Virus record (IMG/VR): IMGVR_UViG_3300050015_000600
Span: 1 to 64,000 of that record
Reading direction: 5' to 3' (one strand)
DNA length: 64,000 nt
From: a virus
The translations under genes and the position numbers were made by a program. Shown here piece by piece: positions 8,357 through 64,000 of this stretch (its first letter is position 1; each line of letters begins with the position of its first letter). Below the pieces are notes generated by a model. It had not been told where the DNA came from. It did not search any database and saw only the letters and a list, made by a program, of their open reading frames with translations.

Positions 8357-8925
8357 AATAAATCCTGTTTACCTTTTGATTTTAAATTAACTTTCTTTTT
8401 TCCTAAGAACAAATCAACTCTTGCTCTTACTCTTATCTTTAATCCTCTGATCACTCTGCCGTCTGCGTGTATGTATCGGCTCATTAGTTCTGCCGCTTCT
8501 TCCATCTTATAGTTATTTACTAATTCGATGATACCCGTGGATAAAGAACCTAGATTGTAAACGTGGTCGGCCAAAGCCACCCACTCGTAGTCGAATAATT
8601 GTACTGTAATTTTGTCTTTTAAATAACTTTCGCATTGTACTAATTCATTGAAAAATAATCTATCTGCTAATTCTTGTGATATTCTGTTAGTATTGCCGCG
8701 TCCCCATGACGTTCCATATCCTATCGTTCTGTTACCGCCTGAGCATGTGTAGGCCGTAAGCCTGCAACCCTCTTGCGTCTTTATAAATTTCGCCGCTTGC
8801 ATCCACCTTGTATCTACATCTTGACTAAGCCCACGGGCTGATATTATAATCCCTAGAACTATGATGAGAATACTCCGGTAGAAATAATTTAGCGAACTCG
8901 ATTTCCTCTTTATATCTTTTCTCAT
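8305..8925 (-). CDS. phage lysozyme (endolysin, GH24/T4-type) with N-terminal hydrophobic segment
   Basis: Cleaves peptidoglycan for host lysis or tail entry. The catalytic signature is clear: a Glu in FIKTQEGCRLTAY followed by GNRTIGYGTSWG, as in T4/P22-type lysozymes. Before it lies a basic tail and a hydrophobic stretch (YRSILIIVLGIIISARG), suggesting a signal or signal-anchor-release N-terminus. The ATG at 8925 is chosen; a GTG at 8952 is in frame, and an internal ATG at 8802 would remove the hydrophobic segment. The 5' end overlaps the preceding adaptor-like gene by 101 bases and the 3' end overlaps the nozzle gene. A lysozyme between adaptor and nozzle genes could be virion-borne rather than a free endolysin. 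Confidence 0.85.
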   Translation of the reverse strand: MRKDIKRKSSSLNYFYRSILIIVLGIIISARGLSQDVDTRWMQAAKFIKTQEGCRLTAYTCSGGNRTIGYGTSWGRGNTNRISQELADRLFFNELVQCESYLKDKITVQLFDYEWVALADHVYNLGSLSTGIIELVNNYKMEEAAELMSRYIHADGRVIRGLKIRVRARVDLFLGKKKVNLKSKGKQDLLCTPNKPLTYLKGLTAR

Positions 8926-9634
8926 ATTGCATAAAATTCGGACTCCCAGCACTCATAATATATTCACTTACTGCATACATCAAAAAACAGCGTTCGTAAG
9001 GAGCCAATAGAGGATTTACCCTCGTGCTCTCAAACATAGTCTGAAATGTTGTATCTAGTGTTGGTATGCTATTTGTATTAAGATCATACCAGGCATCCCA
9101 ATATGTATAGTAGTTGAATACAGGTGTACTCGTCCCTGCTGTCCATAGCGGTGTGCCAAAGGCTGGAATATCCGGTTTATAAAATATCAGTATCTCATCA
9201 GGTTCGCAAGGCTCCATGCCTTTGCTAAACCTGATTTCGTTATCGTGAATTGAATAACGTGTACTGTCGTCATTATAGGCGTAACCGCGGTGATAATCTA
9301 ATAATTTTGTATCACCATAAAGCCCGTTATACATTTTTTCGTTATACGCGTCCCTCTCTTTCACCCCCATCGGAACACACAGACGCCCATTGCCATTGGC
9401 ATCAACGTCTTTTATCTGTATGATTCGTAAATAATCAACAGGAATCGTAAAGTACGGCTCCTGCGCGGCCTTAAGAAATGTTATTTTCTTCTCTAAATAC
9501 TCAGTCTCCCTCTGAAACTGCTGCATGCCGCGGGTAAATGACCGCATAAAGGTTACTTCGTCTGTCGGAAGTTTCTCCGTGTATAGACGCAGCGCAATTT
9601 GATAATCTGAATATAATTCTCTAAATGTTGACAT
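8825..9634 (-). CDS. head-tail adaptor / ring-like protein
   Basis: 269 residues beginning MSTFRELYSDYQIALRLYT. It is the fifth and last of a run of 220-270-aa proteins downstream of the capsid genes. All open with a helical N-terminus followed by a beta-rich middle (GMEPCEPDEILIFYKPDIP here) and a helical C-terminus, the general build of podovirus adaptor or tail-ring proteins. It ends inside the lysozyme gene. The adaptor call is by position and resemblance within the series, not by a recognised motif. Confidence 0.75.
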   Translation of the reverse strand: MSTFRELYSDYQIALRLYTEKLPTDEVTFMRSFTRGMQQFQRETEYLEKKITFLKAAQEPYFTIPVDYLRIIQIKDVDANGNGRLCVPMGVKERDAYNEKMYNGLYGDTKLLDYHRGYAYNDDSTRYSIHDNEIRFSKGMEPCEPDEILIFYKPDIPAFGTPLWTAGTSTPVFNYYTYWDAWYDLNTNSIPTLDTTFQTMFESTRVNPLLAPYERCFLMYAVSEYIMSAGSPNFMQYEKRYKEEIEFAKLFLPEYSHHSSRDYNISPWA

Positions 9635-29158: not shown

Positions 29159-29203
29159 ATTTGTCAATTGGACAAATTTTTAAAAACTATGCGGGAAAAT
29201 ATA

Positions 29204-29671
29204 ATGAGCAGTAAACGAAAATTATTAGAAGAAATTAATGAATTGCGTGGCGAGCTTAGAGATTCAAAGGATGCAGCGAACGCTTTTTACGAGAAATGGT
29301 CAACAGAAATGCGAGCAGGTGCAGCGTTACATGATGCAAAAATCAAATTAGCCGAAGATATTGTTAAAATTCAATCCGACTATACAAAGAAAATCAAAGA
29401 AGTTGAACGCTTAGAAAAAGCTAATAAGAAATTCATGCAGGCTATAGACGCTCTTAAGAAACAATTAGCTGATAGAGAAATCGACCGTGACTACGTAGCG
29501 AGAGAAACAGCACTAAGACTTGCAATAGCTACGAACAGCGCGATAACTGAAAAAGAGATTATAAAACACGCTAAGAAGAATTACAAGTTTCTTGTTGATA
29601 CCGAAGAAGACGAAACCGGTGTTGCAGCGATTCCGCCCGAAGAAGCAGAACCAGTAATTGTCGAGATGTAA
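29204..29671 (+). CDS. coiled-coil early protein
   Basis: 156 residues from the ATG at 29204 (MSSKRKLLEEINELRGEL). An ATG at 29168 lies too close to the expected transcription start. Residues 5-110 are a continuous coiled coil and the tail is acidic (EDETGVAAIPPEEAEPVIVEM). It could be an oligomerising scaffold or host-takeover protein. First gene of the rightward early operon; its stop overlaps the next start. Confidence 0.7.
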   Translation: MSSKRKLLEEINELRGELRDSKDAANAFYEKWSTEMRAGAALHDAKIKLAEDIVKIQSDYTKKIKEVERLEKANKKFMQAIDALKKQLADREIDRDYVARETALRLAIATNSAITEKEIIKHAKKNYKFLVDTEEDETGVAAIPPEEAEPVIVEM

Positions 29672-30027
29672 TGTTCAATAAAAAGAAAAAGATTGACAAA
29701 GACACTGATATTGGCAAAATAATAACCACCGCGGAAATCACAATCCCGTTTGGATTTGAATTTAAGCCTATCTACGAAGAACACACTCAAGAGTTGTTTA
29801 AGTTTATAAACAAACACGCTCCTGATAAAAAGGCTTTGACTGAAATAAGATGGGAAGAAGAAACTGTAGTGCTTAGAGCGCAGATAGATCATTTATACGA
29901 AGTAATATATCTATTTGGATACGCAACGAAAATGATAGACGATTGGATAACTCAGGCTATAGGCAATAATGCAAAAGATAAGTTTGATGTTATCACAGAA
30001 ATAACCGGAAATTTAAATATAAATTAG
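29671..30027 (+). CDS. hypothetical early protein
   Basis: 118 residues beginning MFNKKKKIDKDTDIGKIITT, alpha/beta with a helix-rich C-terminal half (IDHLYEVIYLFGYATKMIDD). Translation is coupled to the coiled-coil gene. No family recognised. Confidence 0.7.
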   Translation: MFNKKKKIDKDTDIGKIITTAEITIPFGFEFKPIYEEHTQELFKFINKHAPDKKALTEIRWEEETVVLRAQIDHLYEVIYLFGYATKMIDDWITQAIGNNAKDKFDVITEITGNLNIN

Positions 30028-30035
30028 AGAAAATA

Positions 30036-30452
30036 ATGGCAAAGATGAACAAAACCATAGCTAAAATTTTAGCAGAAAAGGTAAGCGCAAAAACGAAGCA
30101 AGCGATGGAAATCGGTTATGATCAAATGATAATCGAAATTAAAAGCGCATATAATGCAGAATTGACCGAATTAATGATTGCGCGGAATGGCATTGAATCA
30201 CGTATTAGCGCAATAGAAAAAGAGATAATGTCGAAATACAAAAAAAACGACGTTTATATTAATTTTTGTTGCTCGCGTGGCGAAGTCGCTCCGTCAATTT
30301 CCGCATGGAGCAATCATCGCATTAGCTTGGATGAAATTACCAATAAGATTTTATTAGAAGATTTCTTCTCGGACGGCGGATTAGACGTGGAAGAATTTGT
30401 TACTAATTACGCTCAGGAATTAGTTGCTAAATTTAATACGCAGGTTCAATAA
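30036..30452 (+). CDS. hypothetical early protein
   Basis: 138 residues. The first two thirds are helical, with a likely coiled coil (IARNGIESRISAIEKEIM), then a short globular part with NFCCSRGEVAPSISAWS. It sits directly upstream of the SSB-tail protein, with overlapping stop and start. A DNA-replication accessory role is possible but unsupported. Confidence 0.68.
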   Translation: MAKMNKTIAKILAEKVSAKTKQAMEIGYDQMIIEIKSAYNAELTELMIARNGIESRISAIEKEIMSKYKKNDVYINFCCSRGEVAPSISAWSNHRISLDEITNKILLEDFFSDGGLDVEEFVTNYAQELVAKFNTQVQ

Positions 30453-30727
30453 TGGCAGGATTTCAAAAAGTCTCAGGCTTATGGAAAGCAGAGGATAAAA
30501 ATGGGGATTTGTATTATCGCGGCAAGGGCGAGGACGGTAAAATGTATTACATGCGCCCGAATACAAAAAAGACTAAGGATACTCAGCCTGATATGGAATT
30601 GTCGTATCAAATATTCGACGACGATAAACCGCAAGCACCGAAGCCGGCAGGGGTTCAACCCGTCCAAGCCGTACAGCCGGTAGCCGAAGAAACAGTAGTA
30701 GATGATGATAATGACGTACCATTTTAA
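30452..30727 (+). CDS. small protein with an SSB-like acidic tail
   Basis: 91 residues. A small beta module (KVSGLWKAEDKNGDLYYRGK, about residues 6-40) is joined by a Pro/Gln/Val linker to an acidic end DDDNDVPF. The terminus closely resembles the DDDIPF tip by which bacterial SSB recruits replication and repair enzymes. The linker plus tip layout is that of SSB, but the N-terminal domain is too short for a normal OB fold. It may be a minimal ssDNA-binding protein or a decoy that binds SSB partners. Confidence 0.7.
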   Translation: MAGFQKVSGLWKAEDKNGDLYYRGKGEDGKMYYMRPNTKKTKDTQPDMELSYQIFDDDKPQAPKPAGVQPVQAVQPVAEETVVDDDNDVPF

Positions 30728-30736
30728 GGAATAAAG

Positions 30737-30922
30737 ATGAAAGAAAAATTTATGATAGTACAGAATTTTTGCGAAGTCGCTAATTGGGACGGTTTTGGTA
30801 CACATAAAGAGCGATGTTGGATAGAAGAATCCAGAGGATATGATTACGCTTTTGAGGCGGTTGACATAAAGAATAGTTTCATGCACCCTGAATTTTACAT
30901 AGTGATAAAATATTATGAATAA
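30737..30922 (+). CDS. hypothetical early protein, 61 aa
   Basis: 61 residues beginning MKEKFMIVQNFCEVANWDGF, aromatic-rich and beta-like. An AAGGAATAAAG ribosome-binding site precedes the ATG. It overlaps the GroES-like gene by 8 bases. Function unknown. Confidence 0.62.
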   Translation: MKEKFMIVQNFCEVANWDGFGTHKERCWIEESRGYDYAFEAVDIKNSFMHPEFYIVIKYYE

Positions 30923-31211
30923 AAAAGAAAAGAAATTTATACCCACAAACGATTGGGTATTCATACACCTTGATTCACCGGAGGTCGTGACAAAGAGCGG
31001 GTTGATAGTAGTGAATAATAACCCGACAGAAGAACCGCCGTTGTTCGCAACGGTACTGCGTGCAGGCAAAAAATGCTTGTACGTAAAACCTGGAGACAGG
31101 ATAAAATTTGAAAAATACTCTGTAGTAGAATCCGGCCTGTTTGAAGATGGCAAAAAGATAGACATGCTACGAGAAAAACACATTGAATTAATTTTGGATA
31201 TAGATGAATAG
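30915..31211 (+). CDS. groES: GroES-like co-chaperonin
   Basis: 98 residues, the usual length of Cpn10. The family pattern is seen along the whole protein: PTNDWVFIHLDSPEVVTKSG at the start, ATVLRAGKKC, KPGDRIKFEKYS, and the end MLREKHIELIL matching the ILREsDILai motif of GroES. Phage co-chaperonins (for example T4 gp31) replace host GroES to fold capsid proteins. The mobile loop (residues about 20-35) is NNNPTEEPP-containing and differs from bacterial loops. Confidence 0.85.
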   Translation: MNKKEKKFIPTNDWVFIHLDSPEVVTKSGLIVVNNNPTEEPPLFATVLRAGKKCLYVKPGDRIKFEKYSVVESGLFEDGKKIDMLREKHIELILDIDE

Positions 31212-31614
31212 ATTACATTTAGGGATTAGACCCGCAAGGCGGCTGTTGAAAGTATCCCAGGGCGAATTAGCCCGATTAATGGGAAAGAATCCGGCTTATA
31301 TAAGCGCGGTGGAAACCGGCAGACATAACGGCAGCATATTGTTATACAACAAAATATGCGAAACATTAGGATTGCCGTTGGTTGTAGTCGCTATGGAAGC
31401 CTTACAGGTCGAAGAAATACGAAGCAAAGAAATGGAAGAATTTTTATCAATAAAAAATGAACTTTATCGTTTCCTTGGTGTTGACAAAATCATAGATGAG
31501 AAGAATGAAACTATCGAAATGCGTAAAATAGCGGAGAAGTTATGTCCAACGAAACCATTGGTGAACAATTTGCAGCAGCAGAACTTCGAGCAAAAATCCT
31601 ACAAGACAGTATAG
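31204..31614 (+). CDS. XRE-family helix-turn-helix regulator
   Basis: 136 residues. A classic HTH_3 domain occupies residues about 8-62: LLKVSQGELARLMGKNPAYI followed by SAVETGRHNGSILLYNKICE. The C-terminal half is a helical, probably dimerising region. It is a good candidate for the regulator of the divergent promoters at 29.05-29.16 kb or for lysogeny control, given the tyrosine recombinase in the window. It overlaps the GroES gene by 8 bases and the next gene by 73. Confidence 0.82.
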   Translation: MNRLHLGIRPARRLLKVSQGELARLMGKNPAYISAVETGRHNGSILLYNKICETLGLPLVVVAMEALQVEEIRSKEMEEFLSIKNELYRFLGVDKIIDEKNETIEMRKIAEKLCPTKPLVNNLQQQNFEQKSYKTV

Positions 31615-31904
31615 CCCTTAGCGTTCGAAAGATATGTAAAACGCTTGCTAAGATGAGCGTAGGATTTGGGAATCGTCTGATCGTTTTATTGTTTCGTCAA
31701 CCGCATAACAACATCGTTGATTTTATGCACGAATTAAAATTATACCACGGTAAAAATAGATTATCGGGTAAGGAGTTTTCTTCATTAGCTAAACTAGTCT
31801 TTCCTGATGTAGAGTTTAACAAAGACAACATCGAGAAATATGGTAATTATGAAGACTGTTTCCCCAGCGTAGATGATTACGAAGAAATTCCTTGTCCTTT
31901 TTAA
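31542..31904 (+). CDS. hypothetical protein overlapping the regulator gene
   Basis: 120 residues beginning MSNETIGEQFAAAELRAKIL. It overlaps the XRE gene by 73 bases in another frame, a long overlap that suggests coupled expression. A later start is possible, but the N-terminal helix reads well. It ends in an acidic, Pro-containing tail (SVDDYEEIPCPF). Function unknown. Confidence 0.65.
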   Translation: MSNETIGEQFAAAELRAKILQDSIALSVRKICKTLAKMSVGFGNRLIVLLFRQPHNNIVDFMHELKLYHGKNRLSGKEFSSLAKLVFPDVEFNKDNIEKYGNYEDCFPSVDDYEEIPCPF

Positions 31905-31993
31905 AGATTCCTGTGAGAACAGGAGGCATTTATCCTCTCCCCCTTGGGTTAATGCTGCCACGGAGCCGTCTATAAACGGCGGCTCTAATTTTT
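31905..31993 (+). promoter_or_regulatory. structured leader with terminator and anti-terminator hairpins
   Basis: A GNRA-capped hairpin (TCCTGT GAGA ACAGGA, 31909-31924) is followed by a GC-rich segment and a terminator-like hairpin: GAGCCGTC with GGCGGCTC, loop TATAAAC (31963-31985), then AATTTTT. An alternative helix GCTGCC (31954-31959) with GGCGGC (31978-31983) would break that terminator. Two exclusive folds upstream of a gene are the layout of an attenuator or riboswitch; the ligand or signal is unknown. Confidence 0.6.
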
Positions 31994-32013
31994 AAACTTT
32001 AATTTTGGATTTT

Positions 32014-32196
32014 ATGAAAGCTAAGAAAGGAACATGGATGGGTCTCGCAATAACAATTTTGTTAGAAGCGGGACTGTTCATCCCGATAGTTAAAGCAACG
32101 GAATGGATGTTTACAACAGTATTTGTATTATGGTTAATATGTTTAATGGTTACAGTAATATTTTATGGAGTTGATTGTGCACACGAAAGAAGTTAG
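32014..32196 (+). CDS. small two-helix membrane protein
   Basis: 60 residues from the ATG at 32014 (MKAKKGTWMGLAITILLEAG); an in-frame TTG at 32005 is less likely. Two hydrophobic segments (about 9-25 and 30-50) form a probable membrane hairpin. First gene after the attenuator-like leader. It could be a holin or an exclusion protein by its build, but the lysozyme lies far away. Confidence 0.65.
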   Translation: MKAKKGTWMGLAITILLEAGLFIPIVKATEWMFTTVFVLWLICLMVTVIFYGVDCAHERS

Positions 32197-32413
32197 AATA
32201 GACAAGAGACAATCTTTTACCGGCGGGAAGGATAACGTGGATTGTGCATACTGTACGAATTGTACAGGGTGCATAGGATGCACAAACTGCCAAGGCTGCC
32301 ATTCTTGTACGGATTGCATAGATTGTTATGGATTAGTTGGAAAAGTCGGCTGGGTGGATAATAAACCGGTTGGCCCTGATGAAGAATACGATAGTTATAA
32401 TAATTGGGATTAA
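32165..32413 (+). CDS. Cys-repeat (xxC) protein
   Basis: 82 residues. Residues about 26-54 carry ten Cys at almost strict three-residue spacing (AYCTNCTGCIGCTNCQGCHS, then CTDCIDC). Such xxC arrays form a tight solenoid-like or metal-binding strip. The flanks are charged and the C-terminus is acidic. It overlaps the membrane protein gene by 32 bases. It may bind metal clusters; function unknown. Confidence 0.68.
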   Translation: MELIVHTKEVRIDKRQSFTGGKDNVDCAYCTNCTGCIGCTNCQGCHSCTDCIDCYGLVGKVGWVDNKPVGPDEEYDSYNNWD

Positions 32414-32414
32414 G

Positions 32415-32627
32415 ATGGGAAAGATAGAAATAGACGTTGCGCTATGGATGGAAATATACTCTGTTTTGGGTTATACGATCGGCATTAGCGAAGGTACGCG
32501 GTATAATATTATGACAGAATCCTATTTTACCCTGCAAGAAAAATTAAACTTAGAAGGATTATTGGTAAGCAATGTTAGCAAAATAGAAAAATTGCTTAGT
32601 AAAATGACAGAGGTAATGGATGACTAA
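32415..32627 (+). CDS. hypothetical early protein
   Basis: 70 residues from the ATG at 32415 (MGKIEIDVALWMEIYSVLGY), placed directly after the stop of the Cys-repeat gene. Helical, with a C-terminal stretch SNVSKIEKLLSKMTEV. It overlaps the next gene by 8 bases. Function unknown. Confidence 0.62.
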   Translation: MGKIEIDVALWMEIYSVLGYTIGISEGTRYNIMTESYFTLQEKLNLEGLLVSNVSKIEKLLSKMTEVMDD

Positions 32628-32979
32628 AGAAGATTTTGAACTTACGTTCGGGCGGAAAACACTTCTGTATGTAGAAAAAGGCTGTTACCGCAAGCTACAA
32701 AAAGTATTCGGAGATTACACTCTCGAAGTAGTAAAACTCTATCCTTTTGTAACATTACGCTTAGGCGACGAAGTGTTAGTATTTGACTTAGTAAACTTTA
32801 CAATTAACGAAACTAATATGACGCTATTCTCAAGTATGGTTGGTATATATCAAACTCACTTAAGAAAGGCGGTATGGGATGCGACAATAGAAGATTTTCA
32901 CAGCGGTAAGCGTACATCGCTAACACAGCCGATGTTGGATGTCGCAAAAGAAATTTCAAAAGGAGTAAATGATGACTGA
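32620..32979 (+). CDS. hypothetical early protein
   Basis: 119 residues beginning MTKEDFELTFGRKTLLYVEK, alpha/beta, with a central beta region and a helical end. It is tightly packed with its neighbours by overlaps. No family recognised. Confidence 0.65.
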   Translation: MTKEDFELTFGRKTLLYVEKGCYRKLQKVFGDYTLEVVKLYPFVTLRLGDEVLVFDLVNFTINETNMTLFSSMVGIYQTHLRKAVWDATIEDFHSGKRTSLTQPMLDVAKEISKGVNDD

Positions 32980-33163
32980 TTTAACAGACGACGCAAAACT
33001 TAAGATTGCTGAAAGACTTAAAGAAATAGAAACTGAATTCAAGGAAGCAGTAGCGAGCTTAACAGAAGCCGAGTTAGTAATTTTCTACAATGCTTTTAAC
33101 TTAGGCTACAGGAAATCATTCTTCGTAGATGTAGCAGAAAGCAACGGGATAGCTTATGAATAA
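32972..33163 (+). CDS. small helical early protein
   Basis: 63 residues from the ATG at 32972 (MTDLTDDAKLKIAERLKEIE), preceded by AAAAGGAG at good spacing. Two helices and an aromatic-rich end. Function unknown. Confidence 0.62.
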   Translation: MTDLTDDAKLKIAERLKEIETEFKEAVASLTEAELVIFYNAFNLGYRKSFFVDVAESNGIAYE

Positions 33164-33386
33164 ATATTTACTATGCGACAAAGTATCCGGCAAGGTGATA
33201 TGCGAGAAATTCGGCGAAGACTTTCAATATTCCGATGATGGCTTGCATGATTTTATAGTTGATTCTACCGGAGAAGATAACAAAATACTATGGTGCTGGT
33301 CGCACGACAGCTACTTGGTGGGCGTTGAATATGACGTAGAACCGCCGAAAGAACAACCTGTTGTGTTATTTCAAAAGAAGGGGTAA
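33156..33386 (+). CDS. hypothetical early protein
   Basis: 76 residues beginning MNKYLLCDKVSGKVICEKFG, with two Cys early and an acidic middle. The pattern LLCDKVSGKVICEKF is weakly reminiscent of a beta hairpin. It overlaps its upstream neighbour by 8 bases. Function unknown. Confidence 0.62.
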   Translation: MNKYLLCDKVSGKVICEKFGEDFQYSDDGLHDFIVDSTGEDNKILWCWSHDSYLVGVEYDVEPPKEQPVVLFQKKG

Positions 33387-33387
33387 T

Positions 33388-33486
33388 ATGGGTCTAACAA
33401 TAATACTTATTTGCGCCCTTGCTTTATCAGGCCTACTGTTTTATTTAACAGCGAAAGAAAAGAAAAATAACAATTTTAAATTTTAA
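33388..33486 (+). CDS. single-span membrane microprotein, 32 aa
   Basis: ATG at 33388, one base after the preceding stop, with GGGGTAAT upstream. It encodes MGLTIILICALALSGLLFYL and then a basic tail rich in Lys and Asn. This is one clear transmembrane segment with an inside-positive tail. It is followed at once by a terminator, so it ends the early operon. Function unknown. Confidence 0.6.
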   Translation: MGLTIILICALALSGLLFYLTAKEKKNNNFKF

Positions 33487-33508
33487 AGGGACTACTGTCC
33501 CTATTTTT
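33487..33508 (+). terminator. intrinsic terminator ending the early operon
   Basis: A 6-bp stem (AGGGAC with GTCCCT), loop TACT, followed by ATTTTTAT. It separates the early genes from the secreted-protein cassette. Confidence 0.75.
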
Positions 33509-33525
33509 ATATTATAGGAGATATA

Positions 33526-34947
33526 ATGAAACGAATTATTCTAATTGCAATAACCTTGTTGGCTATTACAACAATCAGCAAAGCGGATGGCTTTATAAAC
33601 CCGCAATCCGAGTATTACTTCGGAAGAAGTTATAACATACAATATACAGACGAAGTGCCGACAGAGAGCCTGCAATATTACTTTGCATATTCTCTCGACA
33701 ACGGCATGAACTGGACACGCTTTAGCGATACTTTGATTTGGACTTGTCCAGACACAGCAAGAGCTACTTTGCCGATTATGAAAACGGGTGATGCAAAAAT
33801 AGGTATATTTACAAATCCAAACGGAACATGGAATACTACCCCGTATTCTTTTGACACAAAGTTTAAATATTCCGACGATTTTGAATTTATACAACAGCCG
33901 GATACGATTTATAACGGAGGATCATACGAATTTTCAGTAAGAATCAACCCTGATGAAACACCAGAAGAACTGACTTTGCAATACAGTACAGACAACGGCG
34001 ATACATGGAGAATATGGTGGGTGTGTACTTTTAACCCTGAACAATACATAAAGAACATTAATATTGATAACGGCGTTATCGCTTCAAATACTATCTGGAG
34101 GTTGTGCTATGACGATCCCTTAAAAGAAGTATGCCGCACCGGAGTTATCCCATACAAAGAAAGACTTGCCTATTTTAATTTTAAAACTAAAGGCGGAGTA
34201 AAAGAAATCTCGGATAAGGCGGAACTGCTCTGGGAATCGTCGTATAATTTTAAAACTATAAAAATTACTACATATTTTGACAATGGCTTGCTGGATGAAG
34301 CGGATTATAAAACCGACGGCATAGAAATCAACTTTGCTAAGAACGGGGAATACGTTATTGTCGGTTTGGCTCAGGATGCAAATTTTAGTATTACAAAAAC
34401 AGTTACTTTCACCGTAGGCGACCCGTGTTGGTTTGTAAAAGTTCAAGCGATAGAACTTAGAGATAGTCTTAGAAAATCAACCGACGAGCTTTTGAAGGCG
34501 AAAAAAACTATATCGTGGGCGGACAGTACTATCCTTGATTTGAATAAAAAAGTAGATTCTTTAAATAGTGTAGGAATTACACAAAACAAAACTATAGATT
34601 CTTTGCAAGAATATATTTTGATTTTAAAAACAGACAGCTTAAAGATACAATTAATTTACACTTCCGGTTGCGTAAATGAAGTAAAAGACGAAACTTTCGT
34701 TAATAATATGTCGAGCATATATGCCAATCTTACTAACGAAAGCCATATCTATATCGCCGTGCCGGAAGATTTACAGCATACCGCTTTGACGTGGTGGTGT
34801 TTTGACGGCTTGGGTAATTTTGTCCAAGCGGAATCTACAGCCGATATGCCGGATAGTATTGAGATAAAACAAGGAATGTCGCACGGAGTGTATTTTTGGT
34901 ACACTCTGCGCGATGGAATTTATAAAGCATATAAATTTGTGATATAG
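33526..34947 (+). CDS. secreted protein with type IX-like sorting domain
   Basis: 473 residues. A Sec signal peptide (MKRIILIAITLLAITTISKA) is followed by two beta domains with paired aromatic phrases (SLDNGMNWTRFSD and STDNGDTWRIWW, BNR/Ig-like repeats), a coiled coil near residues 310-375 and a C-terminal domain of about 80 residues. The ending GVYFWYTLRDGIYKAYKFVI matches the close of type A C-terminal sorting domains (G-x-Y, then K-x-V/I), though the opening PNP motif is not conserved. It has its own AGGAG site and is flanked by terminators, the layout of a moron gene. It probably acts at the host cell surface. Confidence 0.8.
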   Translation: MKRIILIAITLLAITTISKADGFINPQSEYYFGRSYNIQYTDEVPTESLQYYFAYSLDNGMNWTRFSDTLIWTCPDTARATLPIMKTGDAKIGIFTNPNGTWNTTPYSFDTKFKYSDDFEFIQQPDTIYNGGSYEFSVRINPDETPEELTLQYSTDNGDTWRIWWVCTFNPEQYIKNINIDNGVIASNTIWRLCYDDPLKEVCRTGVIPYKERLAYFNFKTKGGVKEISDKAELLWESSYNFKTIKITTYFDNGLLDEADYKTDGIEINFAKNGEYVIVGLAQDANFSITKTVTFTVGDPCWFVKVQAIELRDSLRKSTDELLKAKKTISWADSTILDLNKKVDSLNSVGITQNKTIDSLQEYILILKTDSLKIQLIYTSGCVNEVKDETFVNNMSSIYANLTNESHIYIAVPEDLQHTALTWWCFDGLGNFVQAESTADMPDSIEIKQGMSHGVYFWYTLRDGIYKAYKFVI

Positions 34948-35011
34948 CGGTCGTTGACCGTTTTATATAGATATAAAACAAGCCCCTTAATTGGGGCTTT
35001 TCTTATTTTTG
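34948..35011 (+). terminator. tandem terminators, second one bidirectional
   Basis: First a short hairpin CGGTC GTT GACCG followed by TTTT directly after the stop codon. Then AAGCCCC / GGGGCTT with loop TTAATT at 34980-34999, T-rich on both sides, so it can end transcripts from either strand. It separates the rightward secreted-protein cassette from the leftward small-gene block. Confidence 0.85.
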
Positions 35012-35538: not shown

Positions 35539-35709
35539 CTACAACGCTCCTATGGCTTTGAGTATTTCATTTGCGAAAACTACAATTGCTATATAAACAA
35601 CAAGCACTCCAAACTATACGGTTGATTTTATCTGTCTTACGTGTTCTTTTTGGAGCAGTATTATTTTATCAAGCAACTCGTCGTTTGTCCGATCGCGGTT
35701 ATTCTGCAT
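35539..35709 (-). pseudogene. small membrane protein interrupted by an in-frame amber codon
   Basis: The frame from ATG 35709 reads MQNNRDRTNDELLDKIILLQ and on to a TAG at 35616-35614. The same frame then continues for 24 more codons with a clear hydrophobic segment (FGVLVVYIAIVVFANEI) to a TAG at 35541-35539, one base before the next ATG. A helix followed by a single membrane span is a coherent small phage protein. The tight packing shows the original gene filled the whole interval. It is either a nonsense mutation, a sequencing error or stop read-through. Confidence 0.65.
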
Positions 35710-36202
35710 CGTCTTCTCCCTCGTTTATCCAATAACTCTTTATATACCAAACTACCATATACATAGCTTCGTCATCCCGCCAAGTATTGATCACGCAGGC
35801 GATAGTGTTTTTATCATCGCGGAAGAATATATCCGTTTGATAGTTATTTCCAACGTCGGATTGGCATTGGAACGACATGTGTAGATTAGTACTGTCAAAT
35901 TTAAACGTTCCGGCTTTGATCAAATACATGCTTGTTATGTCTTCTGCTGTGTGTTTAAAGAATTTATATTCTTTGTTAAACTCGAACACAGTAAAATAGC
36001 CTGTATTCGAATTTGTCCGCTCCCAAGTTTCTCCGTTATCGCTACTGATAAAGTTATTACAGCCCATTGTACTAATGCTTGTTCCGCCTTCATAGCCAGA
36101 GCAGGAATATGTGCTTATGGCCGTTATTGCTAATGCTAACAACAATGCAATTGCGCACCAGCCTAAACATCGAACTATTTTATCCGTTTTCTCGTCTTTC
36201 AT
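35699..36202 (-). CDS. membrane-anchored protein
   Basis: 167 residues. One membrane segment near the start (CLGWCAIALLLALAITAIST), then an extracytoplasmic beta domain (NFISSDNGETWERTNSNTGY). The N-terminal anchor with a Cys just after the segment could be lipid-modified, but no strict lipobox is seen. It might be a superinfection-exclusion or envelope protein; inferred. Confidence 0.68.
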   Translation of the reverse strand: MKDEKTDKIVRCLGWCAIALLLALAITAISTYSCSGYEGGTSISTMGCNNFISSDNGETWERTNSNTGYFTVFEFNKEYKFFKHTAEDITSMYLIKAGTFKFDSTNLHMSFQCQSDVGNNYQTDIFFRDDKNTIACVINTWRDDEAMYMVVWYIKSYWINEGEDDAE

Positions 36203-46354: not shown

Positions 46355-46612
46355 ATGAAAAAAGCATTATGTATATGCAATATGTGTGGAGCTTTGTTAA
46401 TAGACGAAAATCCACAAGTAGATGCAATGGAATATGAATTAACAGGTGCAGAACAAGAAATGGAATATCATTACGACAGGGAGGATGGTTCGTATTATGG
46501 GTGTCCTAATTGCCATACAGACGGTTATTTAACCGATAATTTGACAAGTGAAGCTCATCTTGGGTTGTATAACCACATGAAACATAATTGCGAGGCGACT
46601 TATGCAAACTAA
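46355..46612 (+). CDS. zinc-binding small protein
   Basis: 85 residues. MKKALCICNMCGALLIDENP and later YYGCPNCHTDGYLTD give CxxC pairs for one zinc, separated by an acidic helix. It overlaps the integrase gene by 11 bases. Could be a regulator for the recombinase; inferred. Confidence 0.7.
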   Translation: MKKALCICNMCGALLIDENPQVDAMEYELTGAEQEMEYHYDREDGSYYGCPNCHTDGYLTDNLTSEAHLGLYNHMKHNCEATYAN

Positions 46613-47474
46613 AATTAATGAATTTCTTGCAATGCCAACACGTAAATCTATGGTAATTTCCGATGATTATAAAAGATTAGTCACTTCAACTTTTGAAAAG
46701 TATCAAAAGAAGTTTGAAACGTTGTCAAGAGCGAATATAATAGAGTATCTAAATACTTCCGATTATTCGCAGGGTTCTAAATATACAATAGCAACTACTT
46801 TATGCAGGTTCGGGCGTGAGTTCGATCTGCTTAAAGAAAATGATATTAATACTATCAAGCGTTGTTTCCCAAAAGACCGCAAAGAATGGTCGAAAGAAAA
46901 CCTAAAAGCAAATGACCTTGACACAATACTCGATACGATTATTAAGCGTAGAAAGCTCCCTGTTACTAATTTAAGGGACGCATTGTCTATTGCATTGCTT
47001 AGTTCATTCGGAATGCGTGTAGGGCAGTTAATAGCCATGCAAAGAGATGATATTAGAATAATTGAGGATAAAATCGTTGTCGCTCTTATCCGTCAAAAGC
47101 ATAATAAGTTTGACCGCTCTCAAGGCGATGTGTTCAAAGTGTCGTTGCCTATGAATTATAAAGTCGGACAATATAATCTTAAAACATTATTGCTGAGATA
47201 CAAAGAATTATTACCACAGGACAGTCCGGCTTTGATATACGGCAAAACTTTCGACGCTCCTATGACCACCGCCGGAATGCGCAAGGTTATTAAGAAAATA
47301 GGTGAAGATATACACATGCCTGATCTACACCCTCATGTTTTTAGGCATTACGTAGGAACTAAATTAACTATAGAATACGGTGTAGAAGTTGCTTGCGCTA
47401 TGCTTAATCATGCGGCTATTAATACGACTAAAACATATTTGAATAAAGAATCAATTTTAGATAAAATTAAATAA
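46602..47474 (+). CDS. int: tyrosine recombinase / integrase
   Basis: 290 residues. The N-terminal SAM-like core-binding domain (about 5-100) is followed by the catalytic domain with R139 (FGMRVGQL), a Lys at 166 or 169 (RQKHNKF), H245-x-x-R248 (HPHVFRHYVG), H270 (MLNHAAIN) and Tyr279 (TKTYLN). It catalyses site-specific strand exchange, for phage integration or for dimer resolution. No arm-binding domain is evident. It is expressed from inside the tRNA-punctuated unit, and a tRNA gene lies 1.3 kb downstream. Confidence 0.92.
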   Translation: MQTKINEFLAMPTRKSMVISDDYKRLVTSTFEKYQKKFETLSRANIIEYLNTSDYSQGSKYTIATTLCRFGREFDLLKENDINTIKRCFPKDRKEWSKENLKANDLDTILDTIIKRRKLPVTNLRDALSIALLSSFGMRVGQLIAMQRDDIRIIEDKIVVALIRQKHNKFDRSQGDVFKVSLPMNYKVGQYNLKTLLLRYKELLPQDSPALIYGKTFDAPMTTAGMRKVIKKIGEDIHMPDLHPHVFRHYVGTKLTIEYGVEVACAMLNHAAINTTKTYLNKESILDKIK

Positions 47475-47485
47475 GAGGTATTTGG

Positions 47486-47739
47486 ATGATAGACGATAAT
47501 TTAGAATATGATGTATTAAAAAAAAGGTTGATATTCCATTTGCAGGAATGTTGCATTGTTTATATTCAATAAAATTTAAATGCAAAGGAGAACTTAGCGA
47601 CGAACAAAAAGACAAAGCGTACAGGTGTCTTCGTGTAATAGCAGAAGACGAAAACAGTGATAATGAAGCCCACGCATGGTGCTACAATCAGTTAGGTCTT
47701 ATAGAATCAGGCAGGTCAAGATTTATAAAAATAGATTAA
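47486..47739 (+). CDS. small protein requiring a -1 frameshift at an A8 run
   Basis: The frame from ATG 47486 (MIDDNLEYDVLKK) runs into eight A at 47517-47524 and then stops at 47572. In the -1 frame the sequence continues as KVDIPFAGMLHCLYSIKFKC to a stop at 47739, reading as one natural protein of about 84 residues. The A AAA AAA heptamer is a classic -1 slip site. Either programmed frameshifting or a one-base indel in the run explains it. Function unknown. Confidence 0.6.
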
Positions 47740-47750
47740 GGAATAAAGGA

Positions 47751-47984
47751 ATGATAGCAATTAATCAAAACGAAGAAGCAGTACCTTTAATGTACATACT
47801 AACCGATTATGATTTACGCGGTGGTTTGGATACGGGTACTAAAATAACAGACTTTAGGCTATCACAGCAAGTGATAAATACAATGCCTACGTTGGTTTAT
47901 ATTAATAAAGACGGCAAAGCGGTATTATTAAAAAGTCGGCATGACAATATTAGCATAGGATTTATTGACCTTCGGGATATATAA
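47751..47984 (+). CDS. hypothetical protein, last gene of the unit
   Basis: 77 residues from the ATG at 47751 (MIAINQNEEAVPLMYILTDY), preceded by AAAGGA; an upstream in-frame ATG lies inside the previous gene. Beta-rich with a DKTGTKITDF-like phrase. A terminator follows 14 bases after the stop. Function unknown. Confidence 0.65.
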   Translation: MIAINQNEEAVPLMYILTDYDLRGGLDTGTKITDFRLSQQVINTMPTLVYINKDGKAVLLKSRHDNISIGFIDLRDI

Positions 47985-47998
47985 TAGATTAAACCCTC

Positions 47999-48032
47999 AG
48001 CCGAGCCTTTTAAACGAGGTTCGGCTTTTTTT
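47999..48032 (+). terminator. intrinsic terminator of the rightward small-gene unit
   Basis: AGCCGAGCC pairs with GGTTCGGCT (9 bp, one wobble), 10-nt loop, followed by seven T. It ends the unit that begins at 41.6 kb. Confidence 0.88.
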
Positions 48033-48093
48033 GTGTCTTAGTATGCCTATATTTGTTGTGTTTGTACAATTTAATATATTTTATGATATAAAT

Positions 48094-48124
48094 TTGTATA
48101 TGTTGCAAAATAATCGTATGTTTG
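48094..48124 (+). promoter_or_regulatory. promoter of the non-coding RNA / tRNA locus
   Basis: TTG (48094-48096), 20-base spacer, TATGTTTG (48117-48124), a full TTG/TANNTTTG match right after the terminator. No gene follows for 700 bases, so its product is RNA. Confidence 0.75.
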
Positions 48125-48203
48125 AATGTTCAGTTATTTGTAAATCGAACAAAGTGATTTTTAAGAAGGTTTTTGCACCTTATATTTTCCTTCTTAAAAT
48201 CGG

Positions 48204-48339
48204 GGCAAAGTGGCGGAAATGGTAAACGCACGGGCATGATTAGCAGGAAGCTACTACCGTACATAGTGCGGATAGATATATCCAAGACACGTAGCTGAAA
48301 TAAATACTATACTTGCAGGTTCGAATCCTGCCTTTGCCC
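48204..48339 (+). tRNA. tRNA-like module with an extended internal region
   Basis: Acceptor GGCAAAG (48204-48210) with CTTTGCC (48332-48338), extended outside by G-C pairs; D-arm GCG..CGC with a TGGTAAA loop; T-stem GCAGG/CCTGC with loop TTCGAAT. These match a leucine-type tRNA. The space between D- and T-arms is about 85 nt, some 45-50 nt too long, and holds AGCTAC/GTAGCT, CCGTAC/GTGCGG and GGATA/TATCC pairings. No convincing anticodon arm could be drawn. It may be a tRNA with an insert or a tRNA-like domain of a larger RNA. Confidence 0.55.
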
Positions 48340-48454
48340 CTAAATAGTTCTTTGAATAAAAACCCATCGGGAGATTAGAAAACCTGAATAAAACAAATCG
48401 GGGAGTAAGACGACACGCTGTAAGCTGTTAGGGTCTCCCTTGAAAATGTAATAA

Positions 48455-48527
48455 ACCCCGCAAGTACTTTACGATATATTGCGGCAAATAATGTAGTTGT
48501 TTTGGACATACTCGCGGGGTCTCTTTT
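48455..48527 (+). terminator. terminator-like fold with a competing hairpin
   Basis: ACCCCGC (48455-48461) pairs with GCGGGGT (48514-48520), extended by AGTA/TACT, before CTCTTTTT. The 5' arm can instead pair locally (CCGCAA 48458-48463 with TTGCGG 48479-48484). The two folds exclude each other, so read-through into tRNA-Ser may be controlled. Confidence 0.5.
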
Positions 48528-48592
48528 TCAGAGGGTGGTTGCCTTAGGCTAAGCTATGATTGAGCAAGGTGCGTACTAACAGGACTGTAGAA

Positions 48593-48683
48593 CAGCGACA
48601 GATAGAAAAGTGTTGATACGTTCACGAACAGGCTATAGACTGGACTACCCTATCCTTTAGATGCAGTTTGATTCTGCTCGCTG
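48593..48683 (+). ncRNA. possible second tRNA-like module
   Basis: CAGCGA (48593-48598) pairs with TCGCTG (48678-48683). GCAG/CTGC holds a T-loop-like TTTGATT. GATAG pairs with CTATC inside. There is no clear D or anticodon arm. Confidence 0.35.
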
Positions 48684-48739
48684 ACCGAGATTTGGTAAAG
48701 ACTGTAAATCGTACGTAACAGCAGGGGTCATTTATTTTT

Positions 48740-48822
48740 GGAAGTGTCGCATAATTGGCATTGCATCTCCCCGCTAAGGAGACGACCTTCGGGTTGTACA
48801 GGTTCGAATCCTGTCGCTTCCA
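48740..48822 (+). tRNA. tRNA-Ser(GCT)
   Basis: Complete class II cloverleaf: acceptor GGAAGTG/CGCTTCC, D-arm GCA..TGC with loop TAATTGGCAT, anticodon arm TCTCC/GGAGA with loop CCGCTAA (anticodon GCT at 48773-48775), variable arm CGACC-TTCG-GGTTG with a UUCG tetraloop, and T-stem ACAGG/CCTGT with loop TTCGAAT. Discriminator A, no encoded CCA. It would decode AGC/AGT codons. Confidence 0.93.
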
Positions 48823-48851
48823 CAAACAATTTAAGAGATTTATGAATGATA

Positions 48852-51826: not shown

Positions 51827-54800
51827 TTATTCCTGTTCTTTTTCTATGTATTCTATGTTCCCTTCCGCATCTTTTTTGATTGTAAAGAACGGATTGCTTT
51901 TTTGTTGTCCTTTTTTCTCCGGCTCTGCGATGCCTTTTAACTTCTTGTTCATTTTGTCCAAAGCGTAATAATAACCTTTCTCGTTTTCATTTTTATCCGA
52001 TAGCGATGATTCGTTGCCGTCTTTATCTACTAACACGGGTTCATCAAATTTTATACTGCCGGCGTCTATGCCTAAATTGTATCTTTCCGCCGCAGTCTTC
52101 ACAAGCTCAAAACTTGCTTTGCTTTGATAATACTCCGCCGCCCATTTAATAAGTTGCTTGGTATATGGTAATACTTTCTCATCTTTAATAGACGGCAGTT
52201 GCCCGTATCCGTGCGCCGCTGTCGCTACTTCGTCTTTGTGATTCTTAATATATTCCGTTATCATTAACTGACTATGCTGAATATACGGAGTATATGCCAT
52301 ATCTATAAGTCCTGCCCCATTTTTCATGTCCTGCGCATGAGCTAACCAATCTTTGTCTTGTGTCATCTGTGCTATCAACGCACCTTTTTTTAATGTTGTT
52401 TTGTATGTCAACATAGGCGCGGTTGCTATATCTGTTAAGTATGTTATCTTTTGTTCTTCGTTTGTTAATGGATTTTTCGTATTAAAAGCAGTGTCCGAAA
52501 TATCATATTCGTTCAAACTTTGTCCACCGAACATATCAGCGAAACCATCCGCAAAAGTGTATGGAATGTTTACTGTTTTGCCATTGACAACCTTTTGTAT
52601 AGGGTTCCCGTCTTTATCCATCTTTATTCCTGCTATAGCCTGTTTCGCTGTATGTATAGAATATTTCAATATCGTTGGCACGAAGAAACCTTCACTTGCC
52701 TTGCCAATAGCCTGCCATACGTTTCCGTCTTTATTTGCTTTATCAAAATCCTTGACGAATTTTTCAAATTGCCCTGGTAATACAGGTGTGAAATAACCAT
52801 ATACTCCCGCATTGTCTGATAGATTGACACCACTCAGCACGCTAAATATACTGTACTTTATTATTTTGTGAAATATACTATAAGCATCCTCCGACATTCC
52901 CATCTCTAAAGCTATTTTTTTTGCTTCTTCTTCGTAATGCTCTAATTTCGTCTGTGCTGTAGCCGACCATTTGCCACCATTCATAAATAGTTCACCGGTC
53001 GCAAGCATAGTTGTTATCTCTGTAACGCCTATTACGGCTCTCGCGCCACCTATCAAAGTTAATGTTCCTACTGTAGTCAATGCTCTGCCCGCACTTGTAA
53101 ATAATGTCGCCGTCTTCTTTAATCCGCCATCTGTTAATTGGAAATCTATAATAGGTTTTCTAAATATCTGATACCAATTAAATGTTTGATTTAATGCCGG
53201 TTTAGTAAGTAACAATAATGGTCTTGTAAACATATTCCCAGCAATCAGTTTAGTTATCGGTGCTATATCATAATTGCCGTATTTGCCATGTGCTAAATCT
53301 GATGCTAAAGCACCCCTGAAGACTGCCTCGTCGAGCCAGTCTTGGACTTTGCTGAACCCGCTATTCTCAAATGAATTCTCTCTCATCCAATAACCGGATG
53401 CTGTAGCCGCGGTAGCGGAACGCATATTTAACTCACCCAGCTTCATTGCGAAGAATGCTGTGTGTATAGCGTTGTCTATCCATCCTTGAGCACCTACGTT
53501 ATGTACAGGATCAATCATGTAAATATCACTATGCAATTGATTCTCCCAAACGCGCTTAACAAGCTCGTGAGAGCTTATGTGCGGATTACCTTCTATTGGA
53601 TTAAATACTTTGCTTGGACGCGGTTTATTGGCCTCTATAGAGCCATATTTCGCCATTCCTCTCCATGCTCTCCCCGTGTTAGACAAAGAGTTTGCAAAGA
53701 AGTTCTTGCCATGACTGAATAAAGAACCGCCAATAATGTCTTTTGCTAAGGCTTGCCCTGCTAAACCCATTACTACGTTCTTCACCGGAGCACGGAAAGT
53801 AAAAAGCAATTTAAAAGCAGTACCCATTGCTAGCATTTGCGACACTTGTCCAAAGTCAACAGTAATACCTTTGAATATTCCTTTGTAATCACCCTTTTTG
53901 TCATCCCATTTGGCTGGCATTTCGTATTGCCCTGTCAAAAAGAACTTATTTGCCGGAACCGACGTACTATTTATTATTTGCTCCAAATATGCATTGTAAT
54001 TATTATTAATGCCTAATATATTTTGCGACTGCAATTGTTTTATAGCTTCGCCGTTCAAAGCATGCGAAGTTAAAGACGATTTAGCATTGTCTATAGTTGA
54101 CGTACCTGTGTCTATTACATATTGGTATATATCATGCGCGGACATCTCGTCTAAGTTTAATATTCTGAAGTTACCCGTGCGCTGGTTTATCGGTCTGCGT
54201 GTCATACTGCCAAATATAACATCGTATAGCCATTTGTTTCCATACGCAATTATGTTCTCTTTTTGCACTAACTCTTGCAGTCTTTTAATTTGTTTGTTAT
54301 TCTCGTCAATATGTGCAGATATTTCAGGATCGCCGGTTTCTCCTAGTTCTATCATCGGGTCTTGCTCCGCTTCTAATGTTGTTATCATTCCGGTGATTTC
54401 TTCAATGTCCTGCGTATCTATCGGTGTTTTTTTTGTCACTAATTTGATAGCCAATTGCTCGGCTTTTTGTTTGTTAGTTATATATTTTAACTTCTCTTTT
54501 GCTATATTACGGACATAGTACGAGCGCACCTCGCCGGTTTCTTTATTTTCCCAAAACCCTGTATTTGGTGTTTCCATAGGTGTAAAACCATCACGCGTTA
54601 AATATCCTCGCGCTTTTTTATCAGCCGTAACACCGTTGTTATCGTATATTACACCTTTGTACGGCTCAGAGCCGTCTGCTGTTTGCCTAATAGATGTGCG
54701 TACATACTTACCTTCGGAATTTAATTCTACCGTTCGTATGATTGCTATATTATATTTCCCTTGCGACACCGTGCCTACTACGTTTTGGTATGGATTGTTT

Positions 54801-57800
54801 GCCATATCGTCTATACGCTCTATGTTGCGCAACCCTTCATTCAATTCTAATAAATCACGCCTGCCGGATAGTATCATCTTTTTTGTAACTTTTATATCCG
54901 CTTGTATGTCGTCTATCTTTTGAGTATTATTGGTTCTTTTTGCTTCTCTTTGGTCATTACGTATTGCGCGTAAGTATTCCGAATATTTATCCAATTCTTC
55001 ATTTAACTTAGATTTTGCAGCAGATAGCTCTTTTTTCATTTCCGGTAATTTTGCATACGGTACGTCAAGTAATCTCCAGCTCTCCGCTTCCATTGTAACA
55101 TTTTGCAAAGCACGCTGGTAAGCATCGTACAACGGTTTTTTTAACATTAAAACACCTATTTGCGCCTCTGTTAATGATTCGCCGTCAACCTTTGTGTTCC
55201 GTAGTATGTTAGCCTGCCCCTCAGGACTGTTTAATTCTGATATGAGTTTATTTGTCGCTTCTGTTCCGGTTAATACCGCGCCATCCTCGAGTGTGTATGT
55301 TTGCGGTCTAAATGATAAATCTCTCAACTTGCGTAAATATTCAACATAACCGTTGCTCAAAAATGCCATTTCCTTTTTACCTGATGTCTCCATCGCGCCT
55401 AATGCTTTTGAACCTACGGTTTTTGTACCTGTTGCTTTGATTAAAGCATGATAAGCCTCGTCAACCTTTTCGACTACGGGTGTTAATTTGTTTAGTGATA
55501 CATCTATGCTCCTATAAAGTTTACTTGGCATAGGTAAATCAAACAATCCTTGATTTACTTCATATTGTGCATATTGCGGGTATCCAGCTGTTATAGAAAA
55601 CTCTCGTGCCGCTACACCAGGAAAAGCGTCAAATATCGTTGTGCCTACCGCTGTTTGTAATTTATCTAATTTCTTTGCCGTTGCTACCACACTTTCAAAA
55701 TTCGGCGCGCCAATACTTTCAGGATGTTGTGCCGCGGATGACATAGCAATATCATTTGGTATAGTTGTCCTGCCGTATTTGTATTTTGATTGCATAACTC
55801 TACCTTTTATGAAGCTATACGCCATACCGCCAACTATCAAAGCACCAAGTCCTATTATTGCTACCCCGCCTATGCTGGCTTCATTTGTACCATCGTCATT
55901 ACCATACAATTCATCTAATATACCCGCCGTCATTAATCCTATGCCGGCCATAGATTGTACATTATTAGCGTATATAAGCGATTCTCCGGCGAAGGCTACA
56001 GCCAAGCGGTCTTCTACCCATTCGTTAAAAGGCTGTACAGGCTCTACTTTTTCGTCAACGTTATTAGCATACTTCTTCCAATCTTTTAACCATTGCGGGT
56101 TCTCTGCTATTATCTGCGCTTTCACAGCTTCTTGGTCGCCGCGCATCCATGTATTAAGTTTCTCTACACTCCAACTTTTTGGTACGTCCGAAACAATTGG
56201 CTTCTTCTTCGCCTTTGGCTTCTTCGTTTCCTTTGCTACTTCCGCCTCAGCTTGCACGGCTAATTCTTCTTCCGTAGGCGGTGGTGCGTCCTCTAACATG
56301 TTATTGTCTTTAATAACCAATACTTCTTCGTCGTAATTTTTTGCCATGGATTTAATATTACTACGAACCTGTTCCCCCTTGCTGCGTATTTCCGCATCTG
56401 TTGAATTTGCAAACAATGGGCGAAGGAAAGTCATATATTTCTCATCCGACTTGCTTGGCTTCTTTTGTGCTACGATATACAACGCTTTGTCTATATCGCT
56501 TTCAAACTCTAATTTGAATAGATTTTCACCATATCCGTACCTTGGCTTTGCTCCGGTTAGTTCAGTAGATAATTTCTTGCCTTTTTGGTTTACAATAGCA
56601 GGTTCCTCTGCTTTAACCTCCGGCGCAGGAACCGCACTGTTATCTGTAGGTAAGGCTTCAGGCTTGGCGATAATTGAAGGTGCCGTATTCTCTACAGCGG
56701 TCATTTGAGCCACAGTAGTCGCCGCTGTGCGTATTTTAGCGTCCGCGTCTATTTCTATGTTGTTTAAAGTCGAAGGCACCGCCTTGCCGTCTGTACCGGC
56801 AAAAGTATCCTTAGAATAAAAATCAAACAAAGCGTCTTCAATCTTTTTACTACCCGCAATACTATACATACCGATAGTTTTCTCTAACCAATTATCGGGA
56901 AATGTATTCTGTATGCGCGTCCTAACAAAATCAGTAACGTTTTTAAGTTCTACCTGAGCGACAAATTCCTCCGCTTTAGTGACCGATTCGCCATTGATTA
57001 TTTTGTCGTGTATGGAACCATCAAAGCCGTCTTTTATAGTAGCCGATATTGGCAGATTATCCATATTAAGCATATTAAATACTTTTACGATAGGTACTTT
57101 CTCGCCAAATATCTGCGTAGCCGCTAATTGCGCTTGATGAGCAAACTCTATCTTAGCCTTTGTGTCTTTAGCTTTTGGCGCATCGCCTTCTTTTACAGCA
57201 CTTAAATCCGTATCTTTGAAGCCTGCTACCCATTCCTTGCCTAGCTTACCTCCAGGTTTCATACCATCTGCATTTATCTTTGTCACCATCTCTTGTATAG
57301 CCGGTACATCAGGCTTAGTTTCTACCGCTACGGGTGCCGGAAGATTGCCTGCTTTAACTGTTTCAGCTATGCGCTCTACAGCATTCTTAGCTTGCACAGG
57401 CGCGTTTTTAGCTATATCAACAATATCCCTATTGCTAATTATAATATTACCATTTGCTTTTGGCACGTCAGCCAATTTAGTATCTAACTCCGCATCCCCA
57501 GTAGGTTTGTAAGGTATAGCAGATACACCGTCTAAATCTATTTTGTTTTCTATTATCCATTTTGAACGATTTTGAAACGTCGGTGCATATTTATTGATAA
57601 AAGCCGGCACTTGTGCCGCTAAATGGAACCCTATTCCTGCCGCGGCTGTCAAACCCGCTACTTTAGCACTTTCTGTAGCCGCTTGCTGGTCACTCCCGCC
57701 GTTATCTTTAATCATTTTATACGTAGCACCGCCAACACTTGCCATGTTGGTTGCTTGTTCTGCAACAAAAGCCTTTAAAGCAGGATTCGCAGTGACATTT

Positions 57801-63770: not shown

Positions 63771-64000
63771 TTATGCTCCTGTGTGTATTGGTATTAAATA
63801 TTCTGATGCTTTTGTGTTGTCCTGACTCATTGTCTGTACCGGCTGTAAATGCCAATATGTCGTTGTCGGTATAACAAACAACTTCTTTCCTGATTGCGTA
63901 GCTCTTAAACAAAAAGCAGTATCTTCGCAGACTGTCATCTCTAATGACCAGTCCGGTTGGTGTAGTTTGTCGTCTTTCTTAAATGCAAAACAATGCCCGT
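63771..64000 (-). CDS. glycosyltransferase, C-terminal part (runs off the right edge)
   Basis: Open frame from the window edge to a TAA at 63773-63771, 76 codons visible. The residues EDTAFCLRATQSGKKLFVIP and then TTTYWHLQP follow the GT-A (family 2) pattern of an acidic pair before CLR and a WH near the end. Only the C-terminus is seen, so the family call is moderate. Confidence 0.68.
   Translation of the reverse strand, partial: GHCFAFKKDDKLHQPDWSLEMTVCEDTAFCLRATQSGKKLFVIPTTTYWHLQPVQTMSQDNTKASEYLIPIHTGA

Follow-up and report, generated by a model that had tools for sequence, protein, structure and literature searches.

Does the gene at positions 33526 to 34947 of an IMG/VR virus record encode a phage protein that is carried to the host cell surface by the host's own type IX secretion system (T9SS)? 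The window analyzed here is the first 64,000 nucleotides of this record (IMGVR_UViG_3300050015_000600; 76,486 bp), which has a direct terminal repeat of 254 bp and is therefore probably complete. A preliminary description of the window had read the gene as a cassette for a secreted protein ending in a type A-like sorting domain. Our best reading, at a probability of about 0.72, is that the product, P0001, is a phage-borne, divergent cargo of the host T9SS, an accessory protein that would alter the surface of the infected or lysogenized cell. The following features (window coordinates) carry the argument.

33487-33502, plus strand: upstream terminator-like hairpin (AGGGAC-TACT-GTCCCT, then ATTTTTAT; -10.3 kcal/mol, z -3.4)
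33516-33521, plus strand: Shine-Dalgarno-like AGGAGA, just before the ATG of the P0001 open reading frame (ORF)
33526-34947, plus strand: ORF of the 473-aa candidate T9SS cargo P0001 (ATG start, open frame, phage-typical codon usage)
33526-33588, plus strand: signal peptide-like segment, residues 1 to 21 (KR n-region; 12-residue mean hydropathy, 3.0; SKA before DG)
33589-34419, plus strand: Ig-like modules with two Asp boxes, residues ~22 to 298 (weakly related to bacterial T9SS cargo over residues 25 to 254)
34423-34659, plus strand: coiled coil, residues ~300 to 378 (heptad count)
34720-34944, plus strand: candidate divergent type A-like sorting domain, residues 399 to 473 (YAN-L, FDGLGNFV, GVYF, K467/K470)
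34980-34999, both strands fitting the pattern: terminator-like hairpin between convergent genes (AAGCCCC-TTAATT-GGGGCTT; -13.1 kcal/mol)
46602-47474, plus strand: tyrosine integrase (PF00589; E value, 2.2e-15)

The signal peptide, BNR/Ig-like repeats, and coiled coil of the preliminary description were confirmed by hydropathy, the two Asp boxes, and the heptad count, respectively. The N terminus reads MKRIILIAITLLAITTISKA|DG and is signal peptide-like in both sequence and hydropathy. About three Ig-like modules follow, with the Asp boxes SLDNGMNW at residue 56 and STDNGDTW at residue 154 (0.007 expected by shuffling); the Pfam BNR model gave 20.2 bits, under its 27-bit cutoff. In the coiled coil, 61% of the a/d positions are I, L, V, or M, versus 20% elsewhere in the protein. 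Besides these two occurrences, the Asp-box motif is found in the phage once in a 1202-aa ORF and, as SSDNGETW, in the neighboring 167-aa protein (35699-36202, minus strand), which has an N-terminal membrane segment and a possible lipobox.

The P0001 ORF is the last of a plus-strand block (29168-34947) that meets a convergent minus-strand block. The operon around it is of an early type, contains HTH and GroES-like genes, and is separate from the structural block. The GroES-like (Cpn10) gene of this operon occupies positions 30915-31211 (plus strand). In codon usage the ORF is unremarkable for this phage (rank 14 of 43), so that recent import of the gene is unsupported. SD-like motifs precede 49% of the phage's long ORFs (background, 5 to 7%) and are commoner than is usual for Bacteroidota, and a Bacteroidota-type promoter motif occurs 11 times (3.4 expected). 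The gene had been described as flanked by terminators with its own ribosome-binding site (RBS); a hairpin plus T-run does stand on each side and AGGAGA precedes the start, but an independent transcription unit does not follow. Only ~13 nt separate the upstream hairpin from the RBS, so a promoter of the gene's own does not fit behind the hairpin. A phage moron or cassette with its own promoter was rejected on this ground, which makes the earlier word "cassette" doubtful as far as separate transcription is concerned. The upstream hairpin could act as an attenuator or be an element internal to the operon.

The central claim concerns the C terminus. Sorting-domain models from NCBIfam and Pfam, including TIGR04183, gave no match to the whole of P0001, and neither did NCBIfam models on its last 106 or 66 residues; the failure of TIGR04183 and related type A models was one half of the refutation test set out in the preliminary description, the predicted fold being the other. 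With local HMMER scoring, an in-house profile built from 105 bacterial type A domains also left P0001 at background. Because local scoring copes poorly with a weak, domain-wide match, the entire profile was aligned end to end to the last 100 residues (own scoring, end forced at the C terminus). P0001 then scored 8.98 bits, with the match ending at the very last residue. None of 1,433 ordinary C termini (without a sorting domain) reached this score (maximum, 2.3), nor did any shuffled sequence in either of two runs (0/3,000, maximum 7.5; 0/2,000, maximum 4.4), and three gap settings left the verdict unchanged. The sole near competitor in the first large control run (7.3) was in fact a genuine type B domain. 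A set of 30 such domains scored from -4.6 to 17 against the type A profile, and the P0001 C terminus appears about as distant from type A as type B is. Assignment to type B itself (TIGR04131) was rejected, as P0001 scored -1.6 there, a value equalled by 7 of 1,433 controls and 59 of 2,000 shuffles.

Other measures of the same resemblance differ in strength. Over all positions of the control proteins, scores this high occurred at 8 of 295,690, equivalent to ~2e-4 per protein end, and a Gumbel fit to the controls gave a P value of only ~0.005. The remainder of P0001, its other Ig-like modules included, peaked at -5.5 against the type A profile. hhalign assigned a probability of only 15%, with a P value of 0.0018 (0.08 to 0.36 for shuffles). 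Among all ORFs of 10 related phage contigs, the P0001 C terminus ranked first by 6.7 bits, with no other above 2.3. The resemblance to type A domains noticed in the preliminary description therefore stands in the end-to-end test (9.0 versus ≤2.3 in controls), which is strong evidence, though not proof, that the likeness of the C-terminal 75 residues to a type A domain exceeds chance. P0001 is not a formal TIGR04183 member, since it falls under the model cutoff and lacks the YPNP motif.

At the level of motifs, the P0001 C terminus keeps D..G (FDGLGNFV), GVYF (residues 454 to 457), and the terminal lysines K467 and K470, and its YPNP box is degraded to YAN-L, with both prolines lost; identity to sampled bacterial type A domains is 12 to 23%. 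For secretion of HBP35, its final 22 residues, which include motifs D and E, are enough (PMC10202324), and fold matters more than sequence in type A recognition (PMC12618676). AlphaFold without an alignment gave a pLDDT of 32, and a fold search with that model returned only generic Ig matches. Guided by 39 bacterial domains, it gave a pLDDT of 78 (80 to 93 over the domain) and a sorting domain-like strand order, and the best matches were translocon-bound T9SS substrate domains (8glk [NucA], Z 8.7; 8gl8, Z 8.2), with an unrelated Ig-like domain close behind at Z 8.3. Because the guide supplies the fold, the guided model is compatible with a sorting domain but is not a test passed; the structural check proposed earlier was favorable in what the model most resembles and circular in how it was obtained.

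Independent evidence comes from the N-terminal modules. A search of Bacteroidota genomes with P0001 returned weak matches only, all to residues 25 to 254 and none to the tail. Of the seven matching ORFs with readable ends (E ≤ 1e-3 per genome), six (G478, G494, G422, G426, G293, and G214) have a clear type A domain at the C terminus, the exception being G403. Several of these relatives, at ~2,150 aa, are probably orthologous to one another, which brings the number of independent cases nearer to three. Matches occurred in 7 of 123 genomes from the order of the phage relative's host, versus 2 of 395 genomes sampled across the phylum. These counts support a relationship between the N-terminal modules and bacterial T9SS cargo. 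In the bacterial cargo of 872 to 2160 aa (G478, G494, G422, G426, and G293), relatives of residues 25 to 254 precede a type A domain, an order shared with P0001 and its candidate domain, but these proteins are far longer and their type A domains are clear.

Close-homologue searches with the full-length protein found none in INPHARED phages, IMG/VR, or GTDB contigs, and P0001 had no PDB sequence match and no PHROG match. Nine related phage contigs hold neither a P0001-like ORF nor one scoring as a sorting domain, an absence that is incomplete because several are fragments; TIGR04183 likewise found nothing in 12 viral relatives. Relatives that share the structural genes do so without P0001 (several of these contigs, again, are fragments). 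One relative of the phage, G454, encodes other small signal-peptide proteins. A consensus sorting domain retrieved no confirmed relative from IMG/VR in a search sensitive to near matches only, and it matched four uncultured phage records in INPHARED.

The phage itself is isolated: its TerL, portal, and MCP have relatives at 38 to 44% identity on a 24.9-kb Bacteroidota contig (G293:C32), and an annotated phage collection offered only very distant relatives (≤35% identity). Genome G293 encodes SprA and 65 type A domains over the cutoff, and SprA scores over the cutoff in 53 of 54 genomes of its family. Prophage-like relatives lie on two further contigs (G490:C164, ~48-81 kb; G492:C2, ~19-27 kb), both of which hold bacterial genes for T9SS cargo as well. 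T9SS-bearing Bacteroidota hosts are thus supported for related phages, and the phage's own host is judged from these relatives. The lysogenic conversion suggested in the preliminary description is possible in that the phage has an integrase; together with an HTH regulator, this makes lysogeny plausible, and the phage can probably lysogenize. Downstream of the integrase, positions 48204-48339 resemble a tRNA and positions 48740-48823 hold a complete tRNA-Ser(GCT); the region 46602-48823 (plus strand) is a possible attachment region.

Several other genes of the phage deserve mention. Glycosyltransferase and methyltransferase genes, among them tandem paralogous pairs, lie beside the structural genes (63771-64000, continuing at record positions 64001-69039) and may modify sugars of the virion or host surface. 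The phage also encodes two cell wall enzymes that are apparently exported, namely, a phage lysozyme whose N-terminal part includes a hydrophobic segment (8305-8952, minus strand) and a CHAP-domain protein that has a signal peptide (record positions 73345-74085, minus strand). Two very large proteins are without family assignment (1693 aa, 3275-8356, minus strand; 2377 aa, 51827-58960, minus strand), the former conserved in G293:C32 and G490:C164.

Three other readings of P0001 were weighed. It might be a secreted or periplasmic Ig-like phage protein whose C-terminal Ig-like domain resembles a sorting domain through common fold only. Independently of the T9SS, such a protein would act in the periplasm or on the inward side of the outer membrane, superinfection exclusion being one such role. 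The silence of the curated models, the degraded YPNP box, the generic Ig folds that match the guided model almost equally, and the chance scores of 9 found inside other proteins (the 8 positions above) would all fit such a protein. Against it stand the match that ends at the very last residue, the other Ig-like modules of P0001 reaching only -5.5, and the N-terminal modules whose relatives are T9SS cargo, and we consider this reading unlikely. A virion or lysis protein, either a structural fiber or a spanin-like envelope protein, is hardly to be expected. Phage fibers commonly contain a coiled coil and Ig-like modules, as P0001 does, but P0001 has a signal peptide and no PHROG match, its gene sits in the early-type operon and not in the structural block, and it is missing from relatives with the same structural genes.

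The last alternative accepts the domain but reverses its effect: as a T9SS decoy, it would engage PorV/SprA and be poorly released, reducing export of host cargo so that T9SS-dependent phage receptors are lost and superinfection is excluded. T9SS (gld/spr) mutants of Flavobacterium columnare are phage resistant (PMC9233685), the P0001 domain retains recognition motifs while its conserved prolines are gone, and the coiled coil just upstream of it could hinder passage. The absence of the YPNP prolines may, however, reflect no more than neutral drift, and we regard this reading as very improbable.

Under the preferred reading, that of a divergent T9SS cargo, P0001 would work like type A cargo. 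Its signal peptide would take it out of the cytoplasm by Sec. Recognition in the periplasm would then fall to the C-terminal Ig-like domain, chiefly its GVYF and lysine motifs, and translocation to SprA together with PorV. Once on the surface or outside the cell, P0001 would display its Ig/Asp-box modules on a coiled-coil stalk, and the benefit might be exclusion of other phages or adhesion; the export route, the surface location, and any benefit are what we infer from the features above. The interpretation in the preliminary description is favored by the C-terminal resemblance, the cargo relatives, the T9SS-bearing hosts, and the integrase, and it is weakened by the curated models and on the point of separate transcription. 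If the reading is true, lysogens would have a route to change their own surface, and phage hijacking of type IX secretion would be wider than database models show, because phage sorting domains can drift below threshold and yet keep motifs sufficient for export. The P0001 C terminus (90 residues) would then also offer a compact test case for the minimal type A signal that the T9SS needs.

The comparison system is the type A sorting domain (TIGR04183, PF18962; NucA 8glk, RemZ 8gl8, mirolase 8qb1, and PorZ 5m11). The C-terminal ~75 residues of P0001 are like it in D..G, GVYF, the terminal lysine motifs, and, in the guided model, the strand pattern, and, as in type A cargo, they stand behind a signal peptide and Ig-like modules; unlike it, they fall under all model cutoffs, with YAN-L for YPNP and the low identity given above. 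Among phages, Cryophage, a 76-kb Bacteroidetes phage, has three variable genes for T9SS cargo (PMC7468147), and it, too, is a Bacteroidota phage whose accessory proteins bear T9SS tags and are presumed to change the surface of the host. Compared by description, the Cryophage cargo has enzyme or PA14 domains and recognizable type A domains, whereas P0001 has Ig/Asp-box modules, a coiled coil, and only a divergent domain. A BACON ORF with a T9SS sorting domain in a crAss-like phage (PMC6949934) is likewise a phage-encoded protein of this kind, but it has BACON repeats, belongs to another phage group, and lies near head genes. Superinfection exclusion has already been suggested in prior work on phage T9SS cargo (PMC7468147, PMC6949934). 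Phage-encoded T9SS cargo is thus already published, P0001 is a divergent case of it, and the surprise is limited; what differs in P0001 is its architecture and the drift of its domain below model thresholds.
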